A stretch of DNA of 64,000 nt from Actinopolyspora lacussalsi subsp. righensis. Its GTDB lineage: Bacteria > Actinomycetota > Actinomycetes > Mycobacteriales > Pseudonocardiaceae. Position 1 is the stretch's first letter. Each line of letters begins with the position of its first letter. The stretch is taken from assembly GCF_900116555.1 (NCBI RefSeq), contig NZ_FPAT01000005.1, forward strand, positions 1 through 64,000, given 5' to 3'. Of the stretch, positions 13,038 through 63,760 are shown piece after piece. The notes beneath the pieces are model-generated. The model made no database searches, had not been told where the DNA came from, and saw only the letters and a program-made list of their open reading frames with translations. The position numbers were made by a program, and so were the translations under genes.

Positions 13038-14185
13038 GGGTTCACCCCCGAACTCGCGGGATCACCGACGGTGCCCTGCTGCCGAACACGCCGTCCGTCA
13101 CGACGACCGCTCAGCAGCTCGTCGTAGAGCTGATCGATCCGCTCGGTCACGGCGTCCATCCCGTACAGCTCCCGCAACTCGGGAACCTGGGTGCGTGGCC
13201 GAGCTGCCGACAGCTCCGCACGCAGCGCGGACCGCAGCTCCTTGACCTCGCCCGCCACCTCGATCGCGCGGTCGGTGCTGACCCCGTCCAGTGCCGGGCA
13301 GGTGGTGTAGAGCACCACGAGCCCGTTGGCCAGCGCCTCCAGCACCGACAGCCCGAACGTCTCCTGCTTGGAGCAGGCGACGAAGAGGTCCAGCGCCGAC
13401 AGCACGGACGCCACGTCACTTCGCTTGCCCGCGAAGATCACCTTGTCGGAGACCCCGTTGGCTTCCGCGAGTTCCTCCAGCCGTTGCCGGTCCGGACCGT
13501 CGCCCACCAGCAACAGCCTGGTGTCCTCGTCCAGCAACGGAGTGGCGGACTCTATGAGCAGGTCGAACCGTTTGTTCGGGTCGAGCCTGCCGAGCACTCC
13601 GACCACCCGGTGTCGCTCGGAGAGTCCGAGTTCGTTCCTGGTGCGTGCACGGGCGTCCGGATCGAAGGCGACCCTGTCGAAGTCGACGCCGTTCGGAATG
13701 ACACGCACCTTGCGCGCGGGCAGACCCCACCGACGCAACCGGGCTGCCACGGTGTCCGACACCGCTATGGTGGTGTCGGAGAACAGATCGCTGCCCAGGT
13801 AGAGCAGCCGCACACCCGCGCTCATGCGTCTGCGCTCGAGGTGGGTTTCGCCGATGGAGTGCTCGCTGGCGACGACCACGGGAACGCCCGCGAGTCGCGC
13901 CGCTGTCCGACCGTAGACGCAGGAGCGGTAGAGATGCGTGTGCACGGCGTCGAACCCGCCGGAACGCATCAGGGAGCGGAGCCGGAACAACGCGCCCAGC
14001 TCGGTGTTGCTGGTCATGCCGAGATCGTGCACCGGAATCCCGGCTCCGGAGATCATGTTCGCGACCTCGCCCGCGTTGTACAGGGTCACGACCTCGCATT
14101 CGTGTCCGCTACGGCGTACCAGCTCGTAAACCTGCAGTTCGGCTCCGCCGATCCCCAGTCCGGTGATCACGTGTAGGACTCGCAC
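13034..14185 (-). CDS. Glycosyltransferase family 4
   Basis: A 383-residue GT-B retaining glycosyltransferase for EPS assembly. The N-terminal GLGIGGAELQVYEL is typical of GT4; the C-terminal half contains GRLDPNKRFDLLIE and the E-x7-E motif in KQETFGLSVLEAL. GTG 14185 was chosen: GAGGGGG lies upstream and the start shares a base with the stop of the sugar-phosphotransferase gene (TAGTG). The open frame upstream of this GTG is extension without similarity. Its end overlaps the epimerase start by 4 bp. Confidence 0.88.
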   Translation of the reverse strand: MRVLHVITGLGIGGAELQVYELVRRSGHECEVVTLYNAGEVANMISGAGIPVHDLGMTSNTELGALFRLRSLMRSGGFDAVHTHLYRSCVYGRTAARLAGVPVVVASEHSIGETHLERRRMSAGVRLLYLGSDLFSDTTIAVSDTVAARLRRWGLPARKVRVIPNGVDFDRVAFDPDARARTRNELGLSERHRVVGVLGRLDPNKRFDLLIESATPLLDEDTRLLLVGDGPDRQRLEELAEANGVSDKVIFAGKRSDVASVLSALDLFVACSKQETFGLSVLEALANGLVVLYTTCPALDGVSTDRAIEVAGEVKELRSALRAELSAARPRTQVPELRELYGMDAVTERIDQLYDELLSGRRDGRRVRQQGTVGDPASSGVNP

Positions 14186-16865: not shown

Positions 16866-16877
16866 CGCTGTACCCCC

Positions 16878-18233: not shown

Positions 18234-18244
18234 GGCACACCTCC

Positions 18245-19612: not shown

Positions 19613-19773
19613 GATTCCTCCCAGGATCGACGGTGCCGTATCACTGCCGATGCCGTTCGACCATGCCATCGGCAGGACCCCGCGTTCCTCCTCCGCAGTG
19701 GGGAAAAGCGTCTACCCTCCCGGCAGGAGGGGACTCCTCCACCACTCGACGGGACGCCGCACCGGACTCGCCG

Positions 19774-20604: not shown

Positions 20605-21662
<1,058 letters not shown>

Positions 21663-21666
<4 letters not shown>

Positions 21667-37616: not shown

Positions 37617-38849
37617 ATGCCGAAACTGGCCAACAGTACCGAGTCCACCAGACTGTGGGCAGCGCTCCCCGACAACCTCGCGACCCTGTTGCGGCCCGAG
37701 ATACCCAGTCTGGCGACCCAGATCCTCACCGAGATCCAACGACAGATCCCCGAGTACGCCCGCCCGCTGGACCAGCACTACGTACACGCGATACGTCGCG
37801 GCATCGAGGAAGCCCTGACCAGGTTCGTCGACCGGATCGCCGACCCGAGCACACCGCTGCGACGCTGCGCCGAGGTGCATCGTGCGCTGGGCAAGGCCGA
37901 GATGCGGGAGGGCCGCAGCCTGGACAGCCTGCAGGCCGCCTACCGGATCGGCGCAAGGCTGGCCTGGCGACGGGTGGCGGGTATCGGCGAGCGGATACGG
38001 CTGGCACCCCGCACCACGCTGTTGCTCGGCGAGGCGATCTTCGCCCACATCGACGAGCTGACCGCCCTGTCGGTGGAAGGCTACGCGGCCGCCCAGGCGC
38101 GTGCCGCGGGTACGCTGGCTCGCAGGCGCAGGAGGTTGCTGGAGCTGCTGGTGTCGGAACCACAACCGGCGCAGCGCACCATCGAGGAGTCGGCCGTTAC
38201 CGCGCAGTGGCGGGTGCCGCGCCAGGTGACCGTGGCGGCACTGGAGCAGTACGACGAAACCCACTCCCGAACCGGCACGCCGTTGTCCCGTTGGAACGCC
38301 CTGGTCGACCTGGAGTGCGTCGAACCGCACGTGCTGCTCCCCAGTGACCACGGCGAACCGGACGAGATCGACTGGGAGACCGAACTGGCCGGGTGGCGGG
38401 TGGTGGTGGGTTCCCCGGTCGCGCTCGACCAGGCGGGCAAGTCGCTGCGCTGGTGCCGGAGGATGATGGGACTGATCCGCTCCGGCGTATGGCCGGACCA
38501 GCACATCAACCGGTGCCATGAGGACCTGTCGAGCATCCTGTTGCTGCAGGACGAACATCTGATCAGGGAACTCGCCAGGCAACGGCTGGCACCGCTGAAC
38601 GGGCTGCGTCCGAAACAGCGGACTCGGTTGGCCGCCACACTGCTGAGCTGGCTGCAGACCCGTGGCGGTGCCCCCGAGATCGCCCAGCGGTTGCGGGTAC
38701 ACCCGCAGACCGTCCGCTACCGGTTACGGCAGTTGGAAGAGTTGTTCGGCGAGGCACTGCACGATCCGGAGTCCCGTTTCGACATGGAGATAGTGTTGCG
38801 GGCCTCGAACATGCTCTCCGGTGACACAGCGGACTGGCTGGCGGACTGA
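37617..38849 (+). CDS. PucR/CdaR-type transcriptional regulator
   Basis: A 410-residue activator-type regulator. The C-terminal HTH_30 (about 345-400) shows EIAQRLRVHPQTVRYRLRQL, the PucR signature. The middle is a GGDEF-like CdaR domain without catalytic residues (about 190-300), and the N-terminal helical domain (about 15-160) has the RRGIEEALTRFVDRI pattern. In mycobacteria a related regulator (Rv2242) lies beside fatty-acid synthase II genes. Here it is convergent with the acyl-carboxylase/PKS/FAAL operon, so control of lipid synthesis is a reasonable inference. GGGAGGG precedes the ATG. Confidence 0.87.
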   Translation: MPKLANSTESTRLWAALPDNLATLLRPEIPSLATQILTEIQRQIPEYARPLDQHYVHAIRRGIEEALTRFVDRIADPSTPLRRCAEVHRALGKAEMREGRSLDSLQAAYRIGARLAWRRVAGIGERIRLAPRTTLLLGEAIFAHIDELTALSVEGYAAAQARAAGTLARRRRRLLELLVSEPQPAQRTIEESAVTAQWRVPRQVTVAALEQYDETHSRTGTPLSRWNALVDLECVEPHVLLPSDHGEPDEIDWETELAGWRVVVGSPVALDQAGKSLRWCRRMMGLIRSGVWPDQHINRCHEDLSSILLLQDEHLIRELARQRLAPLNGLRPKQRTRLAATLLSWLQTRGGAPEIAQRLRVHPQTVRYRLRQLEELFGEALHDPESRFDMEIVLRASNMLSGDTADWLAD

Positions 38850-39044: not shown

Positions 39045-40619
39045 TCACAGTGGCATGGTGCTGTGCTTCTTCGGTGGGGATTCCTCCCGTTTCGCCTCGA
39101 GCATCAGCAACGCGTCGGACACTCGGGCGCGTGTCATGGCGGGCCGGATCACCGAATCGACGTAGCCGCGTTCGGCCGCCACGTACGGGGTCGTCATGGT
39201 GGCCCGGTACTCGGCGATCAGCTTCGCGCGGACCGAGGCGCGGACGCCGTTGGCCTCGGCTTCGGCCAGCTCGGCGCGGTAGAGCAGCTCGACCGCGCCT
39301 TCTGCCCCCATGACCGCGATCTCCGCGGTGGGCCAGGCCAGGTTGACGTCGGCACCGAGATGTTTGGACCCCATCACGGCGTAACCGCCGCCGTAGGCCT
39401 TCCTGGTCACCACGGTCACCTTGGGAACGGTGGCCTCCGAGTAGGCGTAGAGCAGCTTGGCACCGCGTCGGATTATCCCCCGCTGTTCCTGTTCCCTGCC
39501 GGGAAGATAACCGGGCACGTCGGCGAACGTGAGCAGGGCGATGTTGAACGCGTCGCAGAACCGCACGAAGCGTGCGGCCTTCTCGGAGGCGTCGATGTCC
39601 ATTATCCCCGACTGCCGCAGTGGCTGGCTGGCGACCACTCCGACGGTTCGTCCCCGCACTCGGCCGAAACCGCACAGCACGTTCGGGGCGAACGAGGCGT
39701 GCACCTCCAGCAGTTCGCCGTCGTCGAGCACCGCCGCCAGTACCCGCCGCATGTCGTAGGACTGATTGGGTGAGTCGGGCACCACGGTGTCGAGCTCGGA
39801 CGCGGCAGCGGCGGGCTCCAACACCGGATACTCCGGCGGCACGGCCATGTTGTTGGCCGGCAGGAACGCCAGCAGCGTCCGCACCCAGTCGAGCGCGTCG
39901 ACCTCGTCCGAGGCGACGTAGTGGGCGTTGCCGGTCACGCTGCCGTTGACCTCGGCTCCCCCGAGTTCCTCGGCCGAGATGTTCTCCCCGGTCACCGAAC
40001 GTACGACGTCGGGGCCGGTCACGAACATGCGCGAGGTCCGGTCGACCATCACGGTGAAGTCGGTCAGCGCGGGCGTGTAGACGGCGCCACCCGCACACGG
40101 CCCCATGACCACCGATATCTGGGGAACCACCCCCGATGCCTTCGAGTTGCGCCTGCTCAGCTCCGCGTAGTAGGCGAGTGAGACCACCCCTTCCTGGATT
40201 CGCGCCCCGCCGGAATCGTTGATACCGACGACGGGGCACCCCGCCTTGGTGGCCATGTCCATGATCTTGAGAACCTTCTCGCCGAATGCCTCACCCATGC
40301 TTCCGCCGTAGGTGGTGAAGTCGTGCGAGAAGAGGCAGATTCGCCTGCCGTCCACCGTCGCGTAACCGGTCACCACCCCGTCGCCGTAGCAGCGGTCGTC
40401 GCCCGTGTCGAACGAGGTGGGGCGCCGCAGCGTGAACTCACCGACCTCGACGAAGGAGTCCTCGTCGACCAGTAGCTCGATGCGTTCCCGTGCGGTGTAC
40501 TTGCCCTTGGGGTGCTGCTTGGCCGCCGCTAACTCGTCTGCCCGGGGAACCGCTTCGACACGCCGTTGTTCGAGATCGTCGATGCGTTCGGACGTACCAC
40601 TGGGTTCGTTGTCCGCCAT
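39045..40619 (-). CDS. Acyl-CoA carboxylase beta (carboxyltransferase) subunit
   Basis: A 524-residue AccD/PccB-type carboxyltransferase that moves CO2 from biotin to the alpha carbon of an acyl-CoA, giving a malonyl-type extender. N-half oxyanion motif INDSGGARIQEG (about 133-144); C-half QPLRQSGIMD and the acyl-binding loop GGGYAVMGSKHLGADVN. The specificity position that is Asp in propionyl-CoA carboxylase and Ile in AccB-type enzymes is Ala414 here, leaving room for a larger acyl chain. It starts 3 bp after the PKS stop with AGGGAG upstream, so it likely makes that PKS's extender, as AccD4 does for Pks13. No biotinylated alpha subunit lies in the window. Confidence 0.9.
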   Translation of the reverse strand: MADNEPSGTSERIDDLEQRRVEAVPRADELAAAKQHPKGKYTARERIELLVDEDSFVEVGEFTLRRPTSFDTGDDRCYGDGVVTGYATVDGRRICLFSHDFTTYGGSMGEAFGEKVLKIMDMATKAGCPVVGINDSGGARIQEGVVSLAYYAELSRRNSKASGVVPQISVVMGPCAGGAVYTPALTDFTVMVDRTSRMFVTGPDVVRSVTGENISAEELGGAEVNGSVTGNAHYVASDEVDALDWVRTLLAFLPANNMAVPPEYPVLEPAAAASELDTVVPDSPNQSYDMRRVLAAVLDDGELLEVHASFAPNVLCGFGRVRGRTVGVVASQPLRQSGIMDIDASEKAARFVRFCDAFNIALLTFADVPGYLPGREQEQRGIIRRGAKLLYAYSEATVPKVTVVTRKAYGGGYAVMGSKHLGADVNLAWPTAEIAVMGAEGAVELLYRAELAEAEANGVRASVRAKLIAEYRATMTTPYVAAERGYVDSVIRPAMTRARVSDALLMLEAKREESPPKKHSTMPL

Positions 40620-40622
40620 GAG

Positions 40623-43600
40623 TCACTCCCTGGCTTCACTGCTGTCACCGATGCCGAGTAGTCGCCGGAGGTGGTCGGTCATGACGTCGACGTGCGGGGG
40701 GTCGATCATCGAGAGGTGGTCACCGGGCACCCGCACGACTTCCAGGTCCGCGGCGTAGTCGTCCCAACCGAGCGAGTCGTCCGAGCGCAGGTAGCGGGGA
40801 TCGAGGGTGGTCGTGGTGCTTTCGGCCGCGGCGGCGCGGTACAGCACCACCGGCCCCTCGTAACGACCCGGTTCGTAGCGCTCCGCGATTCTGGCGTCCA
40901 CATAGGATGTGTACTGGTGCCGCAGCACACCGGCGCCGATACCGAGTTCGTCGCCCGCGAGCGCCGACATGACCCGTTCCATCTGTTCCCGCTCGTCGAA
41001 CTCGTCCAACTCGTCCACCGGAACCGGCAGCGAGACCCCGTAGGTGTGCTCGATGTGTCCGACGAATCGCCGGAAGCGGCGGGTTATCAGTTCCTCGTCC
41101 GAGAACTCCGGAGCGGGCAGCGGCAGGATGGAGTCGATGAGCAGCACCGTTTCCACTTCCTCGCCACGGTCGGCCAGTTGACGCGCCGTCTCGAAGGCCA
41201 GACATCCGCCGAAGGACCAACCACCCAGGCGGTAGGGCCCCTCGGGTTGGATCTCGCGGAGCAGCTCGATGTAGCGGGTGGCTTTCTCGGGAACGGTCTC
41301 GTACTGGTCCAACCGTTCCATGCCGTAACAGGGCTGCTCCCCGCCGAGCCGTTCGACCAGTGGCTGGTACACGCTGGTGGGACCACCGGCGGGATGGAAC
41401 AGGAACAGTGGCGTGGCCCTCCCCTCGGCGCGGAGCGTCCGTACCGGCCCGTCCGCCAACTCGAAGGAGTCCCGGACGAGATCGGCCATCCGTTCGATCG
41501 TGGGTTGTCCGAACAGTTCCGGGACCTCGGTCCCCAACCGCTCCCGCACCGCCGCGGTGACCTTCTCCGCCAGGAGCTCGTCACCACCGATCCGGTAGAA
41601 GTCCTGGTCGACTCCCACGCTGTCCAGCCCCAGGACTTCGCGCCACAGGTGCGCCAGCCAGCGTTCCGTGGCATCGCGCGCACCGATCGCACGAGGGGCT
41701 GTCGGTTCGGCGTTCACCCGCTGGGCACCGGGGGAATCGACGCCGAGGTCGACGAGCAACTGGTTCGCCAGTTCGGCGGCGCTGCACCCCCGCAGCAGCA
41801 TGGCGGGGGCTATACCGACCCCGAACTCGCGTTCGACCGCGTTGCGAGCTCGCATGGCCATCAGCGAGTCGAGTCCGAGCCCGGTCAACGGTCGGTCGGG
41901 GTCCACATCGGCCGCGGCCGTGCCGATGATCTCCCCCAGCAGCCGCGTCAGCGTCGAAGTCACCGTGCGCAGCGCCTCTTCCGGGGCGACGGCGCGGAGC
42001 TGTTCGGAGTCGGTGCCGACAGCGGCACCCGGTTCCTCGCCGACCACGTGCCGGAAGAACGGGCGCGTGGACAGTTCCGGGAACATCCGACCGGCCCGGT
42101 TCCCGTCGAGCCACGCCACTCCCGTGACCGGCTGTTCGCTTCCCAGCAGAATCTCGAACGCCTCGGTGCCGGTGGCAGTGGACAACGGCCGCAGCACACC
42201 GGTGAACGACTCGCTCGCGCCCCCAACCTGGCCCCACACTCCCCATTGCACGCTGGTGCCGACGAGCCCTTGTGCACGGCGCCACCGCACGAGGTCGTCG
42301 AGGGCCGCGTTGGCGGTGGCGTAAGCGGCCTGGCCCGGTGAGCCGAGCAGTGCCGCCGCCGAGGAGAAGGCGACCCACCAGTCCGGTTCGGAGCGGAGGG
42401 TGGCCTCGTGCAGTCGTAGGCCGCCCTCCACCTTGGCGTGCCAGACGCGTTCCAGCCCCTGCTCGGTCGACTCGGTGAACGGACCGTCGTCCAGGGCTCC
42501 GGCGGCGTGCAGCACCCCGCACAGCGCGAGCCCGCCATCGGTGGCGGCCGCGACCAGCCGCTCGGCCGTGCCCGCTTCGCCGATGTCACCGGTGACCACG
42601 ACGACCTCGGTTCCACCCGCACGGAGTCGTTCTATGTCGCGCTCGATGTCCGGAGCGGGATCGCGGCGGCCGTTGAGCACCACCCGAGCGGCCCCCCGCT
42701 CGGCCAGCCACCGGGCGAAGGTGTGGCCGAGACCGCCCAGCCCACCGGTGATCAGATAGGACTGCGGCCGCACCGCGGGTGTGGCGACCGAGGACTCCGG
42801 CCGGACCCCGTGCAACCTGGCGACGTGCCGACGCCCCTGCTCGTGACGTACGTCGTCCTCGGCGGAGTCGGCGCACAGCTCGTCGGCCAACGACTCCGCG
42901 TCCGCCCCGGCCGCCTCGACGAGTGAAACGCGCACCCGGGGGTGTTCGAAGGTGAGCACCCGAACCAACGCCCGAAGCTCCGCGTTTGCCGAGCCAGTGC
43001 TGACCAGCCACAGCCGCGCGGGAGCACCGTCGTGGGTCTCCAGGACCCGCACCAGCCCCGCTAGCCGGAGCAACCGCTCCCGAGCCGCCGAGAAGTGGGC
43101 TTCGAGGGTGTCCTCCTCCCCGACGAGAACGACCATTCCGGCGGGAGCTACGGCTTCGTCCAGGAAGCGCTCGACCTCGTCGAAGCGCCGCGGCAGCCCG
43201 TCGTCCGGCCCCGGCGTAGCGCTGGTGACGCGTCGACCACGGTCCCGCAACCGCTGGGCCAGTTCCGGAGCCGCACCGAACAGCAGCCAGTCACCGCCGT
43301 CGGGGGCGGGCTCCGGCAGGTCGGACTCCTCCCAGCACAGCCGCAATCCGGCTTCGGCAGGATCACGCGGTACGGGAGTGGCCCCCATGCGGCGCGCGCG
43401 GACCAGGCCGATCCGCAACACCGCGCGCTCGTGCTCGTCGGTGACGAACACGGATCCGGTCACCTCCGGCTCTCCGGGACTCGTGACCAGCCTGGCGTGA
43501 CAACGAACCCGGGAGGGCACGCGACGGAACAGCCGCACGTCGCGCAACTCGACCGGAACGAACAACTCGACTTCCGCGGAGCCGTCGGTACCCATCGCGG

Positions 43601-46600
43601 CCGCGACGAGAGTCTGCAGACAGCCGTCGGTGATCACCGGATGCGCGAGGAACTCCTGGCGGCTCCCCGCCTCGTCGGGCAACGCCAGCTCGGCCACCGC
43701 GCTCGCGTCACCGGCGTGCGCCCGCTGCACGGGTCGGAAGGCCGGTCCGTACTCCTGGCCCGCCGCGCGCAGCGCTGGGTACAGCCGCACCTGTTCGCCC
43801 CCGTCCGCGGCAACGGTGGAGTCACGACCGGCCGAGTCGCGCTCGGCTCGCTCCTCGGGCGTCGTGCGAACCACCTCGGCGACGGCGTGTCGGTGCCAAC
43901 CGCCGTTCGCGGAACGGCTGTGCACCTCGACGGTCACACCAGCGGTGCCGTACGGCTCGGGCTCGTGCGGGGTGACCACCGTGGTGACCGTCAGCTCCGG
44001 AGCGAGCACGAGCATGTCGTGCAGTTCGAGCCCGCCGAGCAGCAGACTGTCCGGTGGGAGGTCCAGCACTCGGCCGGCGGCGGCCAGCGCCATCTCCAGA
44101 TACCCGGTACCGGCCAGGACCTCGGTGTCGTGCACCCGGTGGTCGCCCAACCAGGGAAGGGAGCCGGTCCCGATCTCGCCCTGCCAGGCGTGTCGCCCGT
44201 CCGGCAGCTCCACGTGATGTCCGAGCAGCCGGTGCTCTCCTCCGACGGAGCTCGCCCCGGCGACGGAGATCCAGTACCGCTCGTGCTCCCAGACGGGCAA
44301 CGGCAGCTCGGCGATGTTGCCCGTGGGAAGGCCGGGCGGTTCGGGCAGTCGTCCGTGGACGTGCAGTCGGGCGAGGTTCTCGCGGAACGTCGCCGTCTCG
44401 TCGGTGTCCCGTCGTGAGGCGAACACCAGCAGCGGATCCCGCACGCCCGCGTCGACCGCCGTCTCCTCGACACCGGAGGTGACTATCGGATGCGGGGCGA
44501 TCTCGACGAAGGTGTCGAACCCGCCGGTCACCGCCTCCCGCACGGCGCGATCCAGCAACACCGGGCGACGCAGGTTCCGAGCCCAGTAATCGGCGTCGAA
44601 CGTCGGTGTGACCCCGGATTCGTGCTCGACGGTGCTGTAGACGGGAATCGCCGGGGTGGCCGGGGCGAGGTCGGCCAGTTCTTCCCGCAACCTGCCCAGC
44701 AGCGGATCGACGGCGGAGGTGTGTCCGGCTCCGGTCACGTCGAGCACCCGCACCACGCGGTCACGACGCCGGAAGTGCGCGGCCAGCAGCTCGATCTCGT
44801 CGGCAGGGCCCGCGACGGTGCAACGGCGGGAGGAGGTGTGCACCGCCACTACCGCCCCCGGAAACCAGTCAGCCAGCTCGGCGACCTCATCGGGTGATCC
44901 CTCCAGAACCGCCATGGCCCCACCGCCGGCGGCTTCCATCTCGGCCAGCAGTCGGGTGCGGGTGTCCATGACCCGCAGTCCCGTGCCGTGGTCCAGCGCA
45001 CCGGCCGCCACGGCGGCGGCCACCTCCCCCATGGAGTGCCCGATGATCGCGCCCGGTCGTGCGCCGTGGGACTTCCACAGTTCCGCCAGCGCGAGCTGGG
45101 TACCGAACAGTCCGAGCTGGGTTCGGTACAACCCGTCGAGTTCGGATCCCGCCGTGAGCGCCTCGTACAGCGAGAACCCGGTCACGGCGCTGAACTCGGT
45201 GTCGTTCCGCCGCAACGACTCCGCGAGAGCCGGCTCGTCCCGCAGCAGTTCACGGCACATGCCGGGCCACTGTGAACCGTATCCGGAGAACACCCACACC
45301 GGTTCGCCCGCCGATCCGGCGTGCCCGCGCACCACTCCGGCCGCGGTGTCCTCGGTGGCGAGGGCATCCAATCCCTCCGCGAGCCGAGCACGGTCCTGAC
45401 CGACGACCGCGCCGCGCCGCACGTGCTGCCTGCGGTGCCGCAGCAGGGTGTGGGCGATATCGGTGACCGGAGTGTCCGCGTGTTCGGGGTCTCGCAGCCG
45501 TTCGGCCAACCGCGCCGCCGTCCGCCGCAGGTGGGAATCGGTGCTTCCGGACAGGAACAGCGTGTGCGGTCCGGCGACTTCCCGCTCGCTCTCGGGCGGG
45601 TCCGGCCAGGACTCCAGCAGCACGTGCGCGTTGGTGCCACCGAATCCGAAACCGGAGACACCGGCCCGTGCGACGCCGGAGTACTCCGGCCAGGGGCGGT
45701 CTTGCCCCACGACTTCCAGGCGTGCGCGTTCGAAGGGAATGTGGGGGTTGGGAGTCCGGTAGTGCGGTGTGGCAGGTAACCGGCCGTGCCGCATGGCCAG
45801 CACCACCTTGATGATCCCGGCGATGCCCGCGGCCGCCTCCAGGTGCCCGAGGTTCGCCTTGACCGAACCGAGCAGCAGCGGCCGATCCACCGTGCGATCG
45901 GCACCGAAGACCGCGCCCAGCGCCGTCGCCTCGATCGGATCTCCCAGCAGGGTTCCCGTGCCGTGGGCCTCCACGTAGTCCAGCACGCCGGGATCGAGAT
46001 CGGCGGTGGCACAGGCCGAACGCAGCAGCCCTTCCTGGGCGGAGGGGTTGGGGGCCATGAGTCCGTTGGAACGGCCATCGGAGTTCACCGCGGAGCCGCG
46101 GATCACCGCGTGCACCCGGTCACCGTCCCGGTTGGCCTCGGACAGCAGTTTGAGCACGACGACGCCGCAGCCCTCGCCACGGACGATGCCGTCGGCGGCG
46201 GCGTCGAAGGGTTTGCACCGCCCGTCGGCGGCCAGTGCACCGGCACTGTGGAAATTGGCGGTTATCGCCGGGGACAACAGCAGGTTCACCCCGCCGGCCA
46301 GGGCGGTGCGGCTCTCCCCCGTGCGCAGGCTGGCGCACGCCTGGTGCAGCGCCACCAGCGAGGACGAGCAAGCGGTGTCGACGGCGAGGCTGGGGCCGCG
46401 CAGATCCAGCAGATAGGACAGGCGGTTGGCGATCACGCTCATCGCGCCGCCGGTGCCGGTCCACGCGTCGATCGCCCCGAGATCCCTGGTGGTCAGCTGG
46501 CCGTACTCAGTGGCAGCGGCCCCCACGAACACGCCGGTGTTCGATCCCCGCAGGCCTTCGGGAACCACACCCGCGTTCTCCAGCGCCTCCCAGCTCACTT

Positions 46601-47144
46601 CGAGCAACAACCGCTGCTGCGGATCCATGACCTCGGCTTCACGCGGGGAAACCTCGAAAAACCCCGCGTCGAACGCGGCGACGTCGTCCAGATATCCGCC
46701 GGCGGTGGGAAGATCGTCCAGCACGCTCCGCTGCCCGGGGGCGAAGTCCTGCCAACGTCGGTCGGGAACGGTTCCGACGGCATCGGTTCCCGAGCGCAGC
46801 AGCTCCCAGAACCGTTCGGGGCCGTCGGCTCCGGGGAAACGGCACCCGAGACCGATCACCGCGACCGGTTCGGCCGGTTCGGTTCCGACAACGGTCGAAC
46901 CGGCCGAACCGGAACCGGCCAGCGCTTCGGCCAGCCGTTCGATCGTGGGGAACTCCCAGAGCAGCGTGGCGGGTAGTGATCTGCCCAGCAGGGTTTCCAG
47001 ATCACCCGACAGCGCCACGACGTCCCGGGAGGAGAGTCCGAACTCGTCGAAGGGCCGGTCGGTTTCGATCCGTGCGGGGCGCGTCCCGGTGCGCTCGGCG
47101 ATACGGTGCACGAGCCACTCGCCCAGTTCCGAGCGATCAGTCAT
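40623..47144 (-). CDS. Pks13-like type I polyketide synthase with added DH and KR domains
   Basis: A 2173-residue synthase. Order: ACP1 (about 5-75; Ser39 in GLSSRD), KS (92-512; Cys259, His394, His434), AT (615-905; Ser704 in GHSMGE, His808 in GAGH), DH (970-1250; His1002, Asp1173), KR (1460-1640; Ser1595, Tyr1608, LDD at 1551-1553 indicating B type), ACP2 (1725-1795; Ser1760), a third carrier-like domain (1825-1892; Glu1856 replaces Ser in GGDEL), and TE (1910-2165; Ser1977 in GWSFGG, Asp2004, His2143). No ER. Mycobacterial Pks13 is ACP-KS-AT-ACP-TE. Here a FAAL should load ACP1, KS-AT would condense with a carboxyacyl unit, KR would reduce, and TE would release. The DH motif is altered (H-x3-D-x4-A), so dehydration is doubtful. 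Start overlaps the FAAL stop by 8 bp. Confidence 0.93.
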
Positions 47145-48906
47145 GGGCCTTCTCCGAGCTCAGTTCGCCATCGAGGTAACGCCGCCTGCACTCGCGGCGC
47201 GCGACCTTGCCGCTGGACGTGTGGGGGACGGTGTCCGGTTCGAGCAGCAGCAGCTCGTGCACGCTCACGCCGTGCGCGTTGGCGATGTCCTTGCGCAGGG
47301 CCGTTTCGATGTCCGAGGGGAACCGTCCTTCGAGCGGAAGCGAGCGGGAGTACTCGGCGGCTATCACCACTCGTTCGGTGTCGTCGACGCTGACGGAGAA
47401 CGCCGCGGTGTGGTGCTTGCGCACCTCGGAGCGCTGTTCCACGGTCTGCTCCAGATCCTGCGGATAGTGGTTCCGACCGTCCAGAATGATCAGGTCCTTG
47501 ATCCTGCCCGTCACGAACAGCTCACCGTCGTAACGAACCCCGAGATCACCGGTGCGCAGCCAGCCGGTTTCCGGTAGCTCACCGGCTTCGTGCAATCGAG
47601 CTCGGAAAACCTCGTCGGAGGCGGCACCGTCCCAGTTCCAGTAGCCCTGTCCGATGTTGGGGCCGTTCACCCAGATCTCACCCACTGCCGCCTCCGGGAG
47701 CGGGCGGTGGGAATCGGGATCGACGATGGCCACCCGCTGCCCGAGCGGGCTGCCGCAGGAGACCAGCGTGCTCGACGGGGCATCGTCGTCCGCCGTTACC
47801 GCTGCTCCCCTACCGAGGGAATCGCGGTCGAACCGAACACTCCGGGGAGCGGTCCCGGCCGGACTGGTGGCGACGAACACGGTCGCCTCCGCCAGCCCGA
47901 ACGAACAACGGTGGGTCTCCGGACGCAGACCGCAGAACTCGAACGCCCGGTTGAACCGCTCCACGGTCGACGGCAGCACGGGCTCGCTGCCGTTGATCAT
48001 CGCGACCACCCGGTCCAGTCTCGTCCACGCCTTCTCCCGATCGGTCACCCTGGCCGCGGTGTAGTCGAAGGCGAAGTTGGGAGCGGCGGTGATGCAGCGC
48101 GGGTTCGCCGCGAGCTGGCGCAACCAGCGTCCCGGCTGCCGCAGGAACGCCGCGGGATCCAGCAACACGGACTTTATGCCACCCACCACGGGGGCGGCCA
48201 CGGACAGCACCAGCCCCATGTCGTGGAACAGCGGTAGCCAGCTGACGGTGGCCCCGCCCTCGATACGCTCGCCGAAGTAGGCCGACAGGGCCTGTCGCGC
48301 GTTGGCGACCACATTGGCGTGCGTGATCCGTACGCCTGCGGGCACCCGCGTCGAACCTGAGGTGTACTGCAGGTAGGCGACATCGTCCGGTGCGGCGGTC
48401 GGCGGAAGCGACTCGGACGACCACTCCTCCTGGAGGGTGTCGACGGCCAGGCACTCACGCGGCGCACGGGCACCGCGCTGCCGGATCACCTCCCGAACCC
48501 GGTCGAACGCGTCCTTCGTGGTCAGCACGCACGCCGGTTCGCAGTCGTCGAGTACGGCATCGAGCCTGCCCTCCTGGCCGGGCATGTCCGGCTGGAACAG
48601 CGGAACCGCGATGGCACCGGCCCGGATGGCTCCCAGGAAACCGATGACGTACTCGATTCCCTGCGGAGCGAGGATCGCCACCCGTTCTCCCGGATCACAG
48701 CGGTGTGCCGTCCAGGCCGCCACCGCGTGAACACGACGATGCAGCTCGGAGATCGTCAACGAAGTGGTGAGACCGTCCTTGCTCGCCTCGTAGTCGACGA
48801 AGGTGATCGCGGTGGCATCCGGTCGCTCCGCCACGGAGCGGTCCAGGTACCCGGTCAGAGTCGCCGCCCCGTCGTGCGGCACGAACTCCGCGGCCGTAGA
48901 TTCCAT
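47137..48906 (-). CDS. Fatty acyl-AMP ligase (FadD32-like)
   Basis: A 589-residue adenylating enzyme that activates a fatty acid as acyl-AMP and passes it to an acyl carrier domain instead of CoA. It has YTSGSTRVPAG (181-191), LPLFHDMGL, the adenylate-binding NGSEPV, TGDLG and GRIKDLIILDGRNHYPQDLE, typical of FAALs such as FadD32, plus the C-terminal SSGKVARRE. ATG 48906 follows GGAAGGTGTT; upstream in-frame residues are unsupported. It overlaps the PKS by 8 bp and almost certainly loads its first ACP. The chain length accepted is unknown. Confidence 0.93.
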   Translation of the reverse strand: MESTAAEFVPHDGAATLTGYLDRSVAERPDATAITFVDYEASKDGLTTSLTISELHRRVHAVAAWTAHRCDPGERVAILAPQGIEYVIGFLGAIRAGAIAVPLFQPDMPGQEGRLDAVLDDCEPACVLTTKDAFDRVREVIRQRGARAPRECLAVDTLQEEWSSESLPPTAAPDDVAYLQYTSGSTRVPAGVRITHANVVANARQALSAYFGERIEGGATVSWLPLFHDMGLVLSVAAPVVGGIKSVLLDPAAFLRQPGRWLRQLAANPRCITAAPNFAFDYTAARVTDREKAWTRLDRVVAMINGSEPVLPSTVERFNRAFEFCGLRPETHRCSFGLAEATVFVATSPAGTAPRSVRFDRDSLGRGAAVTADDDAPSSTLVSCGSPLGQRVAIVDPDSHRPLPEAAVGEIWVNGPNIGQGYWNWDGAASDEVFRARLHEAGELPETGWLRTGDLGVRYDGELFVTGRIKDLIILDGRNHYPQDLEQTVEQRSEVRKHHTAAFSVSVDDTERVVIAAEYSRSLPLEGRFPSDIETALRKDIANAHGVSVHELLLLEPDTVPHTSSGKVARRECRRRYLDGELSSEKAHD

Positions 48907-50310: not shown

Positions 50311-52099
<1,789 letters not shown>

Positions 52100-52107
<8 letters not shown>

Positions 52108-52822
52108 TTGTCACCCCGGGCTTGTAGAGGTAGGTGACGATGCTCTTGCCCAGCACCGGGTTGAGGGCGCGCTCCAGGCTCCGGGTCAACCACGGTGCCC
52201 GGAGCATGTCCCACACCAGCAGCCGGTGGTACAACCGCGTGAGCGGATGATCACGATCGACCCCCACCGCGCACTTCAGCCACCAGTACGGCGAGTGCAG
52301 CGCATGGGCGTAGTGGTGGTGAACCGGTCGCAGCCCGGCCGAGCGCAGCCTGCCGAACAACTGCTGTCGCTGGTAGATACGAACGTGGCCGCCCTCGACG
52401 CGGTGGTACTCCTCGGACAGTGCCCAGCAGACCCGTTCCGGGAACCGGTTGGGAACGGTGACGGAGACGCGCCCACCCGGTTTGAGGACCCGCACCACCT
52501 CGTGCATCGCCTTGTCGTCCTCGGGAATGTGCTCGAGGATCTCCGAGGCGATGACGTGATCGAAGGATTCGTCCGGAAACGGCAGGTCGAGCGCGTCGCC
52601 CTGCACGGTGGTGGCAGCCCCCGTGGCGGGAACCTCGCCCGCCTGCTCCATGGCGCCGAACATCGCGGCCACGTCGGCCAGATCGGATTCGTCGTGGTCG
52701 AAGGCAACCACGTCCAGCCCGCGCCGATAGAGTTCGAACGCGTGCCGACCGGCACCACAACCCAGATCCAGCACTCGCTGGCCCTGTCGCACTCCGAGCG
52801 TGTCGAAATCCACCGTCAGCAA
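52100..52822 (-). CDS. Class I SAM methyltransferase similar to mycobacterial Rv3030
   Basis: A 240-residue Methyltransf_11 protein with SAM motif RVLDLGCGAGRHAFEL (about 17-32), GDALDLPFPDESFDHVIASE, EILEHIPEDDKA and VVRVLKPGGRVSVTVP. The start LLTVDFDTLG and the HHHYAHALHSPYWWLKCAVG segment match, from memory, Rv3030, whose locus makes methylated glucose lipopolysaccharides. TTG 52822 is favoured for that similarity; GTG 52813 is possible. It lies 4 bp after the GT4 stop. Confidence 0.82.
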
Positions 52823-52826
52823 CGCT

Positions 52827-54065
52827 TCACCGCCCTTTTCTGCTTGCTTCGATCGCCTCGGCGTAGCAGTCGACCGTGGCGGCGGCCACCGACGACCAGC
52901 TGTAGCGGGTGAGAACCCGCTGTCTGCCCGCTTCGCCCAGCGCGGTCCTGCGGCTGGGATCGGCCAGCAGCGTGCCCAACCCGGCGGTGAGTGCTTCCGC
53001 GTCGCCGGGCGGCACGAGTTCGGCGGTGGTTCCGTCGGGCCCCACCACCTCGGGAATCGCACCCGCCCGGCTCGCGATCAGCGGGGTACCGCAGGCCATG
53101 GCCTCCACCGTCGGCAACGAGAAACCCTCGTACAGCGACGGAACGCAGGCGATCTCGGCGGAGCCGAACAGCTCGGCGAGCCGCTCATCGGTGAGTCCGC
53201 TGACCGTTCGGACCACGTCACCGATGGCCAGTTCCTCGATCAACCGCTCGGTGGGCCCACCCTTGGTGGGTTTGGCGACCAGCACCAGTTCCACGGCGCG
53301 CTCGGTGCGCAGTTTCGCCACTGCCTCCAGCAGCGTGCCGATGCCCTTCATCGGGGTGTCCGCGCTGGCCATGGCCACGATTCGACCCGGAACCCTGGGG
53401 CGATGAGGTGGGCGGAAAACCTCGGGGTCCACCCCGAGCGGCACGACCCGCAGGTTCGCCCGGTCCACGGCGAAGTCGCGCACGATGTCCTCGGCTGAGG
53501 ACTCCGAGACGGTCAGCACTCGCGGTACGCGGCGGGCCACTCGGCGCTGCATCCGCAGGAAGCCGTACCAGCGTCGAACCCCGAGCTTGCGCCACCCCCG
53601 GGCGGCCGCCAGTTCGACACGCCGGTCGTGGGTGATGGGGTGGTGCACGGTGGCCACCAGCGGAATCCCGGAGCGGCGCAGGTTGAGCAGGCCGTAACCG
53701 AGGGACTGGTTGTCGTGCACGACGTCGAACTCGCCCGCCCTGGAGCGCAGTATCCGTGCGGCACGCAGGCTGAACGTCAACGGTTCGGGAAAGCCCGCCG
53801 ACCACATGATCCCCAGTTCGGCCAGGTCGAGCGGGCCGCGCAACTCACGGGGGTGCGGGGTTCGGAACGGGTCGGACTCCCGGTACAGGTCGAGGCTGGG
53901 AACCCGGGTCAGCCGCACTCCCTCGTCCAGTTCCGGATACGGCTGTCCCGACAGGACCTCGACCTCGTGTCCGAGTTCGGCGAGTCCACTGCTGAGGTGA
54001 CGAACATAGATACCCTGCCCGCCGCTGTGCGGCTTGCTTCGATAGGAAAGCAGCGCAATTCGCAC
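52827..54065 (-). CDS. Glycosyltransferase family 4
   Basis: A 412-residue GT-B glycosyltransferase. The N-terminal SKPHSGGQGIYVRHLSSGLAE binds the acceptor side; the C-terminal domain shows ADTPMKGIGTLLEAVAKL and the E-x7-E motif in SLYEGFSLPTVEAMACG. GTG 54065 follows GAGGTGAATC. It leads an operon with the Rv3030-like methyltransferase and the barrel protein, suggesting a methylated glycan or glycolipid; donor unknown. Confidence 0.87.
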   Translation of the reverse strand: MRIALLSYRSKPHSGGQGIYVRHLSSGLAELGHEVEVLSGQPYPELDEGVRLTRVPSLDLYRESDPFRTPHPRELRGPLDLAELGIMWSAGFPEPLTFSLRAARILRSRAGEFDVVHDNQSLGYGLLNLRRSGIPLVATVHHPITHDRRVELAAARGWRKLGVRRWYGFLRMQRRVARRVPRVLTVSESSAEDIVRDFAVDRANLRVVPLGVDPEVFRPPHRPRVPGRIVAMASADTPMKGIGTLLEAVAKLRTERAVELVLVAKPTKGGPTERLIEELAIGDVVRTVSGLTDERLAELFGSAEIACVPSLYEGFSLPTVEAMACGTPLIASRAGAIPEVVGPDGTTAELVPPGDAEALTAGLGTLLADPSRRTALGEAGRQRVLTRYSWSSVAAATVDCYAEAIEASRKGR

Positions 54066-54383: not shown

Positions 54384-55826
54384 TCACCGGGCGAGTTCGA
54401 GCAGGTCGGAACCGCTGCCCTGGAACAGGTTCCTGTCCACCGGACCGGTGATACCGGGGATGCTGCCCTTGTTGGTGTACTGCCAGAACGAGTAGGCGTC
54501 CCACCCACCGAACAGGCTCGGCTGCGGGACCCCGTAGGAGGCCAACCACAGCGGGTTTTCCGAGAATGCCTGCGAGCCCGCCATGCAGCTGCTCCAGAAC
54601 GACGGGCTGGCGTAGACGATGGCGTCCTCGCCGGTCTTGGACTTCACCCTGTCGAGGAAGCTCTGGGTCCAGGAGTGCAGCTGGCCGGAAGTCTTGCCGT
54701 AGCAGCCGCCTCCGTTGGGCGAGACCTCCAGGTCCAGCACCGGCGGAAGGGTCTTTCCGTCGTCGGTCGAGCCCATCGTATTCAGCAACCGATCGGCCTG
54801 TCCGACAGCGGAGCCGGTGGGCCTGCCGAAGTGGTAGGCACCGGCGAGCATTCCGGCGTTCTTGGCGCCATTGAACTGCTGGTCGAACATCGGGTTGGTG
54901 AAGTTTCCGCCATCGGTCGCCAGCACGAAGGCGTAGTGCTCACCGGAGGCGGCCACCTCGTTCCACTGGATGGGGCCGTTGTGGTTGGAAACGTCGATGC
55001 CGTGCGCGTTCGGCGGAATGTCGACGGCGGGCTTCGCGGGGGAGCTCTTGGCCTCGGGGGCGCTGTCCGAGTCGGGGTTCTCGGCCCGCGCCTGGGCCCG
55101 CTCCTGGTCCGAAGCGGAGTCCTGCTCCGAGGAGGAGTCCTGTTGGGTTCCGCCCTGGTCGGACTGCGCCTGGTCGGGGGAACGCAGCTCGACCGTGTGG
55201 GCCGCCGGGGTGGTCCGCTCGCCGGTGTCGGGTCCCGCGGTGCCGACGAGGATCGCCAGCACGCCGAAGGCCGCCGCAGCCGCGGTCAGCTGCACCGAAC
55301 GGCTGCGCAGCTGCGCCCGGTGGCGGCCGGAGCTCTCCGGCAACCTCGCGCGCAGCTTGGCGACGCGGGGACGCAACTCGTCGCGGATCCGGTGTGCGAT
55401 GGGGGCCAGCCGCTGCCGGACCGGTTCGATCACCGGCGAAAGCCGCTGCCGCACGCGCCGCACGACTGGATCGATTCGGCGTTGCACCCCCTCGATGGCG
55501 GGGATCAGCCACGCGTGCGCGCGCCGCGCGTAAGGAGCGGCCCAGCGCACCACACGTTGGGTCAGCGTCGCCAGTGCGGCCAGCACTTGCCGCAACCACC
55601 GGATGATCCGATCCGTGGTTCGACGCGCGACGGGGCGCAGCCGGTAGGCGGTGTCACGCGCGAACTGTTCGGTTCCGCGCGCGCTACGCCGCCAACCGTT
55701 GGAAGCACCCGGTGCGTTCGAGGGCCGCTCCGGGTTCGCTCGACGCTCGCTGGCGTCTGCCGACTCGGAAGAGCCGACCGGTTCACGGGGTTCTTCTTCG
55801 GGGTTGTGTTGGCCGGGGGTATTCAC
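54384..55826 (-). CDS. Membrane-anchored GH25 muramidase
   Basis: A 480-residue cell-wall hydrolase cutting MurNAc-GlcNAc bonds. A long cytoplasmic Arg-rich region (about 1-180) precedes one membrane helix (about 182-203), an external Ser/Gln/Asp-rich linker (about 205-270) and the GH25 barrel (about 275-480), which begins HGIDVSNHNGPIQW (catalytic Asp) and has the acidic pair in VLDLEV. GTG 55826 is preferred: GGGGAC lies upstream and the sequence before it is unsupported. The large basic cytoplasmic tail is unusual for a secreted lysozyme. Confidence 0.87.
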   Translation of the reverse strand: MNTPGQHNPEEEPREPVGSSESADASERRANPERPSNAPGASNGWRRSARGTEQFARDTAYRLRPVARRTTDRIIRWLRQVLAALATLTQRVVRWAAPYARRAHAWLIPAIEGVQRRIDPVVRRVRQRLSPVIEPVRQRLAPIAHRIRDELRPRVAKLRARLPESSGRHRAQLRSRSVQLTAAAAAFGVLAILVGTAGPDTGERTTPAAHTVELRSPDQAQSDQGGTQQDSSSEQDSASDQERAQARAENPDSDSAPEAKSSPAKPAVDIPPNAHGIDVSNHNGPIQWNEVAASGEHYAFVLATDGGNFTNPMFDQQFNGAKNAGMLAGAYHFGRPTGSAVGQADRLLNTMGSTDDGKTLPPVLDLEVSPNGGGCYGKTSGQLHSWTQSFLDRVKSKTGEDAIVYASPSFWSSCMAGSQAFSENPLWLASYGVPQPSLFGGWDAYSFWQYTNKGSIPGITGPVDRNLFQGSGSDLLELAR

Positions 55827-55883
55827 GAGTCCCCAGACTCCCAGCACTGAGCGTGCACGTAACCACCGGAAAACACGTACACG

Positions 55884-61735: not shown

Positions 61736-62212
61736 CGTCTGTCGTGCGCCCTCCGCCGGTTCACCTACACCTCGTACTCGCCGGAACACCTTCGGTGATT
61801 CCGACCCGCAGAACGAACAACACCCTGCCACGAAACCACCGGACGGCGATGCGACCCACCTCACGACAACCGCTTCTTGGCCGGTCAAAGCCTCGACAAT
61901 GATCGAACCGAACCCCTCACGAGCAACTATGTGTACATCTGTACATAAAAACTGCTAGAGTTCGCCCCCGGCAGTCGCTGGTGCGTGTCATACGGGCTCG
62001 CCCCAGGTACACACCGTCCCGGTACACGACGACGGAACCAGTGGCCGCGCCGGACAACCACCCGGTGACGGGACCTCGCCGCCCGGACCGGACGCCCCCG
62101 GGGAGCGCTCACCCGCGCCGCGGTGATCCACCGAGTGTTGCCGGGCACGGCCGAACGGCCGGGTGGCGTGCCACTCGGAAAGCAAGCAAGCAGCCTCGAC
62201 GGGAAACTCACT
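61736..62212. other. Divergent control region of TetR and betB genes
   Basis: A 477-bp gap. AT-rich DNA near 61910-61960 holds the inverted repeat 61928-61947 and a possible -10 (TAGAGT, 61955-61960). The remainder shows no gene. Confidence 0.6.
61928..61947. promoter_or_regulatory. Candidate TetR operator
   Basis: TATGTGTACATCTGTACATA is a near-perfect inverted repeat containing two TGTACA cores, close to a possible -10 of the betB promoter. Size and symmetry fit a TetR-family dimer pair, so the adjacent TetR regulator is the natural candidate. Confidence 0.5.
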
Positions 62213-63760
62213 ATGTCGCAGACCCACGCCCCGCCGAACGAGTCGATCGCCACGCGAACCGGGGATCCGACCGCTTCCGGCACCCTGTTCATCGATGGTG
62301 TGTGGCAGGCGGCCTCGGCCGGGAAAACCCGGGAGATCCGCTGCCCCGCCGACGGTTCTCCGGTGATCACGGTCTCCGAGGGCGACCGCACGGACGCCGA
62401 AAACGCCATAGCGGCGGCCCGGGCCGCGTTCGACGAGGGAACGTGGCCGGCCACCTCGCCCTGGGAACGCGGCGACCTGCTGCTACGGGTGAGTGAGATC
62501 CTGGTCCGCGACCGTGCGGAATTCGCACGCGCGGAGTCGCTGGACACCGGTAAGCGGCTGGTCGAGAGCGGCTACGACATGGACGACATCGCCGCGTGCT
62601 TCCGCTACTACGGCAAGATCGCCGGAACCGACGCGGGCCACGTCGTCAACACCGGTTCCACCGATGCCATCAGCAGGGTCGACTACGAACCGGTCGGCGT
62701 GTGCGGCCTGATCACACCGTGGAACTTCCCGCTGCTGCAGGTGGCCTGGAAGGTCGCTCCCGCTCTCGCCGCGGGCAACACCTTCGTGCTCAAGCCGAGT
62801 GAGCTGACTCCGAGCACCGCGATGCTGCTGATGCGCGCACTCCGTGAGGCGGGCATGCCCGCGGGCGTGGGAAACCTGGTTCTCGGCAACGGCGCCGAGA
62901 CCGGAGCCCCGCTCGCGGAACACCCCGACGTCGACCTGGTCTCGTTCACGGGTGGACTGCACACCGGTCGGAACATCGCCGCCTCGGCCGCCGCGACCGT
63001 GAAACGGGTCGCCCTCGAGCTGGGCGGGAAGAACCCGAACGTCGTGTTCGCCGACGCGGACTTCGAAACCGCCGTGGACTACGCGTTGACCGCGATCTTC
63101 CTGCACTCCGGCCAGGTCTGCTCGGCGGGCGCCCGTCTGATCGTGCAGGACGAGATCCACGACGCACTGGTCGACGAGATCGTGCGGCGTGCCGAGCGCA
63201 TCGGACTCGGCGGCCCCTTCGACGAGACCGCCGAGTCCGGACCGCTGATCTCGGCCGAACACCGTGCCAAGGTCGAGGATTACGTGGCTCGCTCGGTCGA
63301 GGAGGGAGCGGTGCTGCGTACCGGCGGGAGCCGCCCGGAGGACGCCGAGCTGCGGGCTGGCTACTTCTACCTGCCCACCGTGCTCGACGAGGTACGGCAG
63401 GGCTCTGTCGCCGTGTCCGAGGAGTCCTTCGGACCGGTGTTGACCGTGGAACGCTTCCACGACGAGGACGAGGCCGTGCGCATCGCCAACGACACGCACT
63501 ACGGCCTGGCCGGTGCGGTGTTCACCTCCGATGTGAGCAAGGCGCAGCGGGTGGCCGGGCGGCTGCGGCACGGCACCGTGTGGATCAACGACTTCCACCC
63601 CTACCTGCCCCAGGCCGAGTGGGGCGGCTTCAAGCAGTCCGGTATCGGACGTGAGCTGGGCGGCGGCGGCCTCCGGGAATACCAGGAGGTCAAGCACGTC
63701 TACCAGAACCTCCGTCCAGGACCGCAGTACTGGTTCGCGGGACAGCAGCCGAACGCGTGA
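62213..63760 (+). CDS. betB: Betaine-aldehyde dehydrogenase
   Basis: Oxidises betaine aldehyde to glycine betaine with NAD(P), the second step of choline oxidation; 515 residues. Aldehyde-dehydrogenase motifs: PWNFP (Asn171), FVLKPSE (Lys184), ELGGKNP (Glu269 base) and GQVCSAG (Cys303 nucleophile). The NAD loop reads FTGGLHTGRNI, with Gly-Gly-Leu instead of the usual Gly-Ser. Substrate is assigned from overall similarity and from the halophile context. ATG 62213 has GGGAAA about 9 bases upstream. A short GTGA-coupled ORF follows. Confidence 0.87.
   Translation: MSQTHAPPNESIATRTGDPTASGTLFIDGVWQAASAGKTREIRCPADGSPVITVSEGDRTDAENAIAAARAAFDEGTWPATSPWERGDLLLRVSEILVRDRAEFARAESLDTGKRLVESGYDMDDIAACFRYYGKIAGTDAGHVVNTGSTDAISRVDYEPVGVCGLITPWNFPLLQVAWKVAPALAAGNTFVLKPSELTPSTAMLLMRALREAGMPAGVGNLVLGNGAETGAPLAEHPDVDLVSFTGGLHTGRNIAASAAATVKRVALELGGKNPNVVFADADFETAVDYALTAIFLHSGQVCSAGARLIVQDEIHDALVDEIVRRAERIGLGGPFDETAESGPLISAEHRAKVEDYVARSVEEGAVLRTGGSRPEDAELRAGYFYLPTVLDEVRQGSVAVSEESFGPVLTVERFHDEDEAVRIANDTHYGLAGAVFTSDVSKAQRVAGRLRHGTVWINDFHPYLPQAEWGGFKQSGIGRELGGGGLREYQEVKHVYQNLRPGPQYWFAGQQPNA

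Follow-up and report, generated by a model that had tools for sequence, protein, structure and literature searches.

The window analysed here, a stretch of 64,000 nucleotides from contig C15 of the 4.92-Mb genome of Actinopolyspora lacussalsi subsp. righensis, a halophile that is not known to make mycolic acids, carries on its minus strand three adjoining genes for a fatty acid–AMP ligase (FAAL), a type I polyketide synthase (PKS) and the beta subunit of an acyl-CoA carboxylase (AccD). These genes probably form an operon of the mycolate-synthase type, akin to fadD32-pks13-accD4, with a PKS that has full reductive domains, an assessment carried by trees, by a serine-less carrier domain (ACP*), by AccD and by the evidence on a PS1/Ag85-like transferase. 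The operon, its domains, their kinship and catalytic residues, and the linkage and co-occurrence of the transferase were all computed. A survey covered 61 genomes (this one and 60 relatives), each scored for six first-look candidates, and further family members came from running the Pks13 model against 101 genomes of the same order and from Nonomuraea gerenzanensis.

The operon and its domains

The operon consists of the following genes.

47137..48906, minus strand: FAAL (FadD32-like), with an ATG start and an alternative in-frame GTG at 49002
40623..47144, minus strand: type I PKS of 2173 amino acids (aa), ACP-KS-AT-DH-KR-ACP-ACP*-TE (acyl carrier protein, ketosynthase, acyltransferase, dehydratase, ketoreductase, two further carriers, thioesterase), from Pfam, translation and trees
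39045..40619, minus strand: AccD, from Pfam, residues and trees

The PKS gene overlaps the FAAL gene by 8 nt and AccD starts 3 nt past the PKS stop. As the FAAL-PKS-AccD order is conserved in six of the eight other Actinopolyspora genomes, the arrangement goes beyond chance, and the original prediction, made from the letters of the window alone, that it mirrors the order of fadD32-pks13-accD4 is upheld by the coordinates, by Pfam and by this conservation in relatives. Pfam identifies an AMP-binding domain (217 bits) and a DIP2-like C-terminal domain in the FAAL, and Carboxyl_trans (607 bits) in AccD. The best NCBIfam models for the FAAL are fatty-acid–AMP ligases, the FadD32 model (NF038339) scoring 547.2 bits, below its cut-off of 975, and the best model for the PKS is mycolic_Pks13 (NF040607) with 1370.8 bits, below its cut-off of 2100. 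Since both cut-offs are missed, the genes are close to the curated families and not members of them.

The domains of the PKS are as follows (residue numbers in brackets).

46905..47144, minus strand: ACP1 (1–80), serine in FGLSSRD, the presumed acyl acceptor of the FAAL
45375..46871, minus strand: KS and linker (92–590), Cys-His-His present; Pfam ketoacyl-synt at 92–337 and Ketoacyl-synt_C up to 462
44352..45299, minus strand: AT (616–931; Acyl_transf_1), GHSMG present, GAGHT at the place of YASH/HAFH
43374..44234, minus strand: DH (971–1257; PKS_DH_N at 971–1077 and PS-DH at 1120–1257), His and Asp present, motif H-x3-D-x4-A
42231..42761, minus strand: KR (1462–1638), catalytic residues and LDD motif present
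41763..41954, minus strand: ACP2 (1731–1794), serine in GLDSLMAM
41430..41639, minus strand: ACP* (about 1836–1905), serine-less, with GGDE where GGDS is expected
40623..41411, minus strand: TE (from 1912; Thioesterase), GWSFGG, Asp and His present

Pfam found PP-binding three times in the PKS and no enoylreductase (ER) domain. The order ACP, KS, AT, DH, KR, ACP, TE read previously is borne out by these matches, although the third carrier, ACP*, had been overlooked. Compared with Pks13 (ACP-KS-AT-ACP-TE), the window enzyme has a full DH and KR; the two systems have in common the operon order, an ACP-KS-AT...ACP-ACP*-TE frame, the KS-AT clade, the AccD pocket residues and the AT motif, GASHT or GAGHT in Pks13 and GAGHT in the window.

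Kinship with Pks13

Trees were built from the KS (67 rows, after the fragment loci L075, L076, L083, L084, L087, L088, L090, L092 and L093 had been dropped), from the AT (61 rows, six names being dropped, one of which lacks an AT) and from both joined (49 of the 67 rows, 18 names being dropped as long branches or near-copies; LG+G4 and LG+C20). In all three, Pks13 joins the window-type enzymes, and modular and Mas-type enzymes stay outside. The AccD-type reducing, the non-reducing and the Pks13 rows make up a single clade of 28 rows (97/97 with LG+G4, 100/99 with LG+C20), the AccD-type reducing group comprising 18 rows, among them L037, L047 and L103, which have no adjacent AccD. Approximately unbiased (AU) tests rejected a Pks13 placed outside all reducing and non-reducing rows (p 0.00045 and 0.0003) as well as a clade made up of nothing but the reducing rows (p 0.0035); a clade of Pks13 with the non-reducing rows was not rejected (p 0.17). 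The FAAL groups with the family FAALs and FadD32 in a clade of 37 rows (96/93) against three outside rows, in a tree using 10 of the 11 FadD32 and omitting L030, L033 and L107. Trees and AU tests thus agree with the kinship to Pks13 proposed beforehand, and a grouping of the KS with modular PKS, named at that time as contrary evidence, was sought in the trees and not found. The enzyme is no ordinary modular PKS, and it is not Pks13 itself but its self-reducing relative.

Asp264 of Pks13, reported in 2026 (PMC13324839), was considered as a marker and rejected. It apparently corresponds to the Asp in DTAC, which lies three positions ahead of the active-site Cys; this Asp is common to every family and Pks13 row and to every other row with a printed motif, so it does not discriminate.

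Relic domains in Pks13

Cryo-EM and AlphaFold2 work on Pks13 of M. tuberculosis describes a pseudo-dehydratase (DH*), similar to a DH in its N-terminal half, and, at 1376–1447, an ACP* that is inactive; a word search of the text turned up no account of where DH* and ACP* come from (PMC11649247). Both resemble domains of the window family, the DH and the ACP*. In profile comparisons, with the post-AT linker removed in all rows, the Pks13 linker between AT and ACP2 matched the family DH with E 1.3e-9, the 22 family DH rows left after removal of the four without AccD with E 1.5e-8, the five Actinopolyspora rows with E 5e-7 and the four no-AccD rows with E 4e-6, the controls (KR, ACP*, reversed and ten column shuffles) lying at E 0.05–0.93. 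Pks13 is without the strand that bears the catalytic His of a DH in the alignment. From these profiles we firmly read the linker as a DH relic; that the window-family DH is its nearest relative appears less firm, as the support for this comes from the trees and from sets of rows that differ in size. The Pks13 linker between ACP2 and TE, in which its inactive ACP* lies, in turn matched the family ACP* with E 1e-11, against E 0.09 for the family ACP2 and 0.26–0.81 for four shuffles, and the ACP* serine is missing in all 26 aligned reducing rows.

Together, the trees, the DH relic and the shared serine-less ACP* make Pks13 look like the decayed descendant of a full reducing enzyme. On the simplest reading, DH, KR and ACP* would all have been present in the ancestor, the KR and most of the DH disappearing on the way to Pks13.

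Reduction by the KR and DH

The KR has its Ser, Tyr, Asn and Lys together with the LDD motif, in line with the working KR supposed in the original prediction. The same prediction treated the DH as dead. Its reading of the motif as H-x3-D-x4-A was correct, but the His and, in DGCLQ, the Asp, which we take to be the catalytic residues, are both present, and the claim of inactivity finds no support. The two residues are retained in 7/7 Actinopolyspora enzymes; across the family rows the His is found in 23 of 26 and the Asp in 24 of 26, and in a conservation ranking of the 290 DH columns they come 29th and 12th. The motif's Gly and Pro, replaced in the window, rank 83rd and 77th of 290 and vary separately within the genus. 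The ratio of non-synonymous to synonymous change (dN/dS) of the DH is 0.28–0.41 in five of five pairs, above that of the KS in each and below neutral. An AlphaFold2 model of the DH region (four sequences) had a mean pLDDT of 39.8, too low to interpret.

The beta-hydroxy product proposed originally keeps its KR part and, with DH inactivity fallen away, becomes one of two outcomes. In the other, the same operon has a working DH and the product would be an alpha-alkyl-alpha,beta-unsaturated (2-alkyl-2-alkenoic) acid, not an alpha-alkyl-beta-hydroxy acid, and to this we give somewhat less than an even chance. It is favoured by the retention and high conservation ranks of His and Asp, by the range of dN/dS and by the LDD type of the KR, a type which usually feeds a DH, and disfavoured by the replaced Gly and Pro, by a dN/dS exceeding that of the KS in every pair and by the loss of the His in L045, L101 and L047, which makes the DH dispensable in some members.

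The acyl unit

In the alkylmalonyl-CoA pathway of stambomycin, an Ala for Asp421 and the loss of Phe at 161 mark MccB as a carboxylase for longer acyl-CoAs, Phe161 being described as universal in known carboxylases for four carbons or fewer (passages of PMC5187497); the role of the acyl-pocket Asp is backed by part of PMC7835884. The window AccD shares both replacements, having Ala414 in place of the Asp and Ser155 in place of the Phe. MccB, however, feeds a modular antibiotic PKS, and the product predicted for the window is a lipid. An Ala for the Asp and a Gly, Ser or Ala for the Phe are present in 17/17 operon AccDs examined (those of 17 of the 19 AccD-linked family copies, the near-copies L030 and L033 being left out). 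All 11 AccD4 have Ala with Gly or Ser, and an Ala together with a missing Phe is also seen in L136 and L142, two further paralogues from f8 that sit in the AccD4 branch. Six presumed propionyl-type paralogues nearest the operon copies have the Phe in 6/6 and the Asp in 5/6, none showing both signatures.

A parallel distribution is seen in the AT, where the motif GA[GAS]H occurs in 19/19 family rows with an adjacent AccD and in 11/11 Pks13, in one of the 11 family rows without an adjacent AccD (L009) and in none of 25 other AT rows, which read YASH, HAFH, VASH and others. The AccD pocket residues and the AT motif make it likely that the alkyl branch is longer than methyl, and they agree with the branched lipid envisaged by the original prediction, a product predicted in both cases.

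Transferase, export and acceptor

A PF00756-type protein is encoded within the fetched stretch in 20 of the 23 family loci outside Actinopolyspora and Pks13 (not in L040, L045 and L101), several of these loci coming from one genus and hence being non-independent. An MFS transporter is found in 13 of the 23 (three at only 32% identity) and an MMPL transporter in four, and L044 unites transferase, AccD, PKS, FAAL, MFS, lipase and PucR regulator in one locus. In the genome of the window the transferase P0004 lies together with an MFS and a lipase at 358356–362446 of contig C7. It has the PF00756 fold and a signal-peptide-like start (by eye), and its closest solved structure is PS1 of C. glutamicum (E 1e-48), followed by Cmt1 and then Ag85, the likeness to PS1 spanning the catalytic domain. 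Homologues of P0004 (E 1e-20) are present in 27 of the 61 genomes surveyed, namely 17/17 with the synthase, 2/2 with Pks13 and 8/42 others; within Actinopolyspora they accompany the operon in 7/7 genomes and are seen in 0/2 without it. In the transferase tree (two rows under 200 aa excluded) the Actinopolyspora copies fall among operon-linked copies.

As regards the acceptor, EmbC-type arabinosyltransferase genes are present in genomes G000, G002, G005, G023 and G043. Arabinogalactan as a general acceptor was ruled out, as no EmbC-type gene was found in the operon-bearing G009 and G048, a result that also belongs with the contrary points discussed below. LLM-oxidoreductase neighbours shared between loci were considered as linked genes and judged a superfamily coincidence.

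Distribution of the family

Domain maps place an ACP-KS-AT-...-TE enzyme in at least 17 of the 61 genomes, seven of the nine Actinopolyspora and 10 others. The NF040607 cut-off was passed in 11 of the 101 genomes of the order, all belonging to family f8, and the hosts of window-type enzymes lie outside this family, the only one to pass. A scan of contigs with peptide patterns taken from the query alone gave four loci, three from Actinopolyspora and one Nocardia PKS, which falls outside the family. FAAL and AccD are both present in 11/11 Pks13 loci and 6/6 fetched Actinopolyspora loci; in the 23 other family loci, within the fetched stretch, a FAAL is present in 22 (absent in L009) and an AccD in 12. 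Some members have no recognisable DH or have lost its His, and L048, L104 and L107 are non-reducing, ACP-KS-AT-ACP-TE.

These last three (L048 at 8204–12406) belong to genus g16, outside f8. Their architecture is like that of Pks13, AT and ACP being joined by no more than a short linker, and a FAAL and a PF00756-type gene, but no AccD, accompany them within the fetched stretch. One branch of the family consists of L038, L039, L041 and L042, whose fetched stretches contain no AccD; the AT motifs are of VASH/YASH/VAAH/VAGH type and an MMPL transporter is nearby, and these may be cousins with methyl-branched, MmpL-exported products. L046 (2–14549) has a FAAL and an ACP-KS-AT-DH-KR-ACP PKS without TE, followed by additional reading frames with KS-AT, and might be a lipid line of several PKSs.

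Proposed working

The catalytic steps, chain lengths, product, export and acceptor set out here are predictions from sequence. The FAAL would adenylate a fatty acid and load it onto ACP1, from which the acyl chain would pass to the KS, while AccD, with a biotin carboxylase encoded elsewhere, would carboxylate a medium- or long-chain acyl-CoA and the AT would place the carboxyacyl unit on ACP2. The PKS likely works like a mycolate synthase, the KS joining the two units in one decarboxylating Claisen condensation, which would yield an alpha-alkyl beta-keto thioester. The built-in KR would convert this to the 3-hydroxy form, so that no separate CmrA-like reductase would be needed, and the DH may dehydrate that form further, giving an acyl chain with the alpha-alkyl branch and an alpha,beta double bond. 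Release of the product, or its transfer to a sugar, would fall to the TE, and the MFS exporter and the secreted PS1/Ag85-like acyltransferase would put the lipid on an extracellular acceptor. On this scheme the operon probably makes an exported alpha-alkyl lipid.

Alternative readings

Several observations weigh against this reading and the descent attached to it. The tree leaves Pks13 either sister to or inside the AccD-type rows (49/5), the groups compared in the AU tests were chosen after the first tree, which makes their p-values post hoc, and the FAAL tree does not put FadD32 inside the family. The DHs of seven or eight other PKSs match the Pks13 linker too, more weakly and with fewer rows (E 5e-5 to 1e-4). 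In the AccD tree, the branch that has operon AccDs and AccD4 together on one side reaches only 88/88, with nine distant rows dropped and L136 and L142 counted in the group; before those rows were dropped, the tree did not resolve a grouping with AccD4 apart from the propionyl-type paralogues. The window AccD is moreover 62% identical to its own-genome paralogue L130 and 47–54% to AccD4. The transferase P0004 lies outside the window, on another contig; it shares its fold with PS1, Cmt1 and antigen 85, but the 11 transferases of f8, the mycolate makers, are split from all 38 others, P0004 among them, by a branch of 100/99, and with the two sets on opposite sides function may differ. In NCBIfam, P0004 has weak, below-cut-off matches to hydrolases and depolymerases and none to a mycolyltransferase, and the MFS beside it resembles drug exporters, again below cut-offs.

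Some of these observations would suit other explanations. A reverse course, with Pks13 ancestral and DH-KR gained in Actinopolyspora-type enzymes, could draw on a root set by outgroups only, on the long Pks13 branch (0.59) and on the unrejected clade of Pks13 with the non-reducing rows; we regard it as quite improbable, because the AU tests reject placing Pks13 beyond every reducing and non-reducing row, its partial DH without the catalytic-His strand fits loss, and L038, L039, L041 and L042, outside the AccD-type clade, also carry DH-KR. Similarly improbable is an ordinary methyl-branched lipid synthase, in which a propionyl-CoA carboxylase AccD feeds methylmalonyl to an iterative Mas-like PKS. 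The own-genome paralogue L130 does have propionyl-type residues, Mas is the best solved-structure match of the PKS, the KS-AT-DH-KR order is that of Mas/Pks2-type enzymes, and a FAAL gene lies beside one Mas-like row (L097); however, the propionyl-type Asp and Phe are replaced in every operon AccD examined, the AT is without a YASH motif, and the window PKS differs from the Mas/Pks2 type in its N-terminal ACP, its C-terminal TE, the lack of a detected ER and its KS-AT clade, Mas-type KS-ATs standing outside the family in the trees. A secreted small-molecule natural product (e.g., a beta-lactone or lipid antibiotic), with the MFS giving self-resistance and the PS1-like protein acting as a hydrolase, seems unlikely to us, if less remote. 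It would account for the drug-efflux and hydrolase matches in NCBIfam and for the lipase and PucR regulator linked in some loci, and alpha-alkyl-beta-hydroxy acids are precursors of lipstatin type. The lipstatin and OleA-type pathways make such acids from two fatty acids, but with stand-alone condensing enzymes and no type I PKS, unlike the window. Against a small molecule stand the best solved relatives of the esterase, the mycolyltransferases PS1 and Cmt1, ahead of hydrolases, its linkage in 20/23 loci, and the MMPL transporter in four loci without AccD.

Possible origin of mycolate synthesis and significance of the operon

According to a 2018 analysis, mycolic acids occur in Corynebacteriales and nowhere else, while Actinopolysporales and Pseudonocardiales possess arabinogalactan but no mycolic acids; Ag85 genes are found in mycolate-positive species only, and where the mycomembrane came from is still a mystery (PMC6194230). 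A search of the open-access literature (titles and abstract starts, with subscription papers and preprints outside its scope) found no description of the family or of its link to Pks13. The genomes studied here bring a PS1/Ag85-like transferase together with relatives of the synthase, carboxylase and ligase, outside the only family where Pks13 passed its cut-off. We tentatively propose, while thinking it slightly likelier to be wrong than right, that Actinobacteria regarded as free of mycolic acids have a complete system for a mycolate-like surface lipid at work, with a FAAL, a self-reducing synthase, a long-acyl carboxylase, an exporter and a secreted PS1/Ag85-like transferase, and that mycolate synthesis arose from it when the synthase lost the KR and most of the DH, of which DH* and ACP* would be the traces, and a separate enzyme took over the reduction. 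This evolutionary reading is the most valuable part of the finding. It offers a possible source for the two dead domains, a partial dehydratase and an inactive carrier, of Pks13, a tuberculosis drug target. Operon and transferase suggest a waxy surface lipid and a possible origin of the tuberculosis-type cell coat, and the lipid class could be sought in strains that are harmless and cultivable.

Neighbouring genes in the window

Next to the operon lies one regulatory gene.

37617..38849, plus strand: PucR-type helix-turn-helix regulator, convergent with AccD (Pfam)

A PucR regulator stands beside the operon in 6/6 fetched Actinopolyspora loci, and a homologue occurs in seven of the 23 family loci outside Actinopolyspora and Pks13, two of them cut by the end of the stretch. 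Upstream of the FAAL, a tight run at 51007–54065 (minus strand) encodes a GT4 glycosyltransferase, a class I methyltransferase and a third protein, of 366 aa, which lacks any Pfam match and weakly resembles an oligosaccharide amylase; the glycosyltransferase and methyltransferase were set aside as parts of the system, their matches being confined to loci of the genus.

Farther away, 7448–19669 (minus strand) is a likely exopolysaccharide cluster with a polyprenyl glycosylphosphotransferase-like gene, three glycosyltransferase-like genes, one epimerase/dehydratase-like gene and a nucleotide-sugar dehydrogenase (NCBIfam), the last alone passing its cut-off. Alpha and beta subunits of a 2-oxoacid:acceptor oxidoreductase are encoded at 20605–23579 (minus strand), the alpha subunit passing its NCBIfam cut-off. 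At 54384–55847 (minus strand) there is a GH25 muramidase-type protein, the N-terminal region of which is weakly like the Apolipoprotein family, below cut-off, and at 62123–63760 (plus strand) a betaine-aldehyde-dehydrogenase-like gene, below its NCBIfam cut-off, which fits a halophile.

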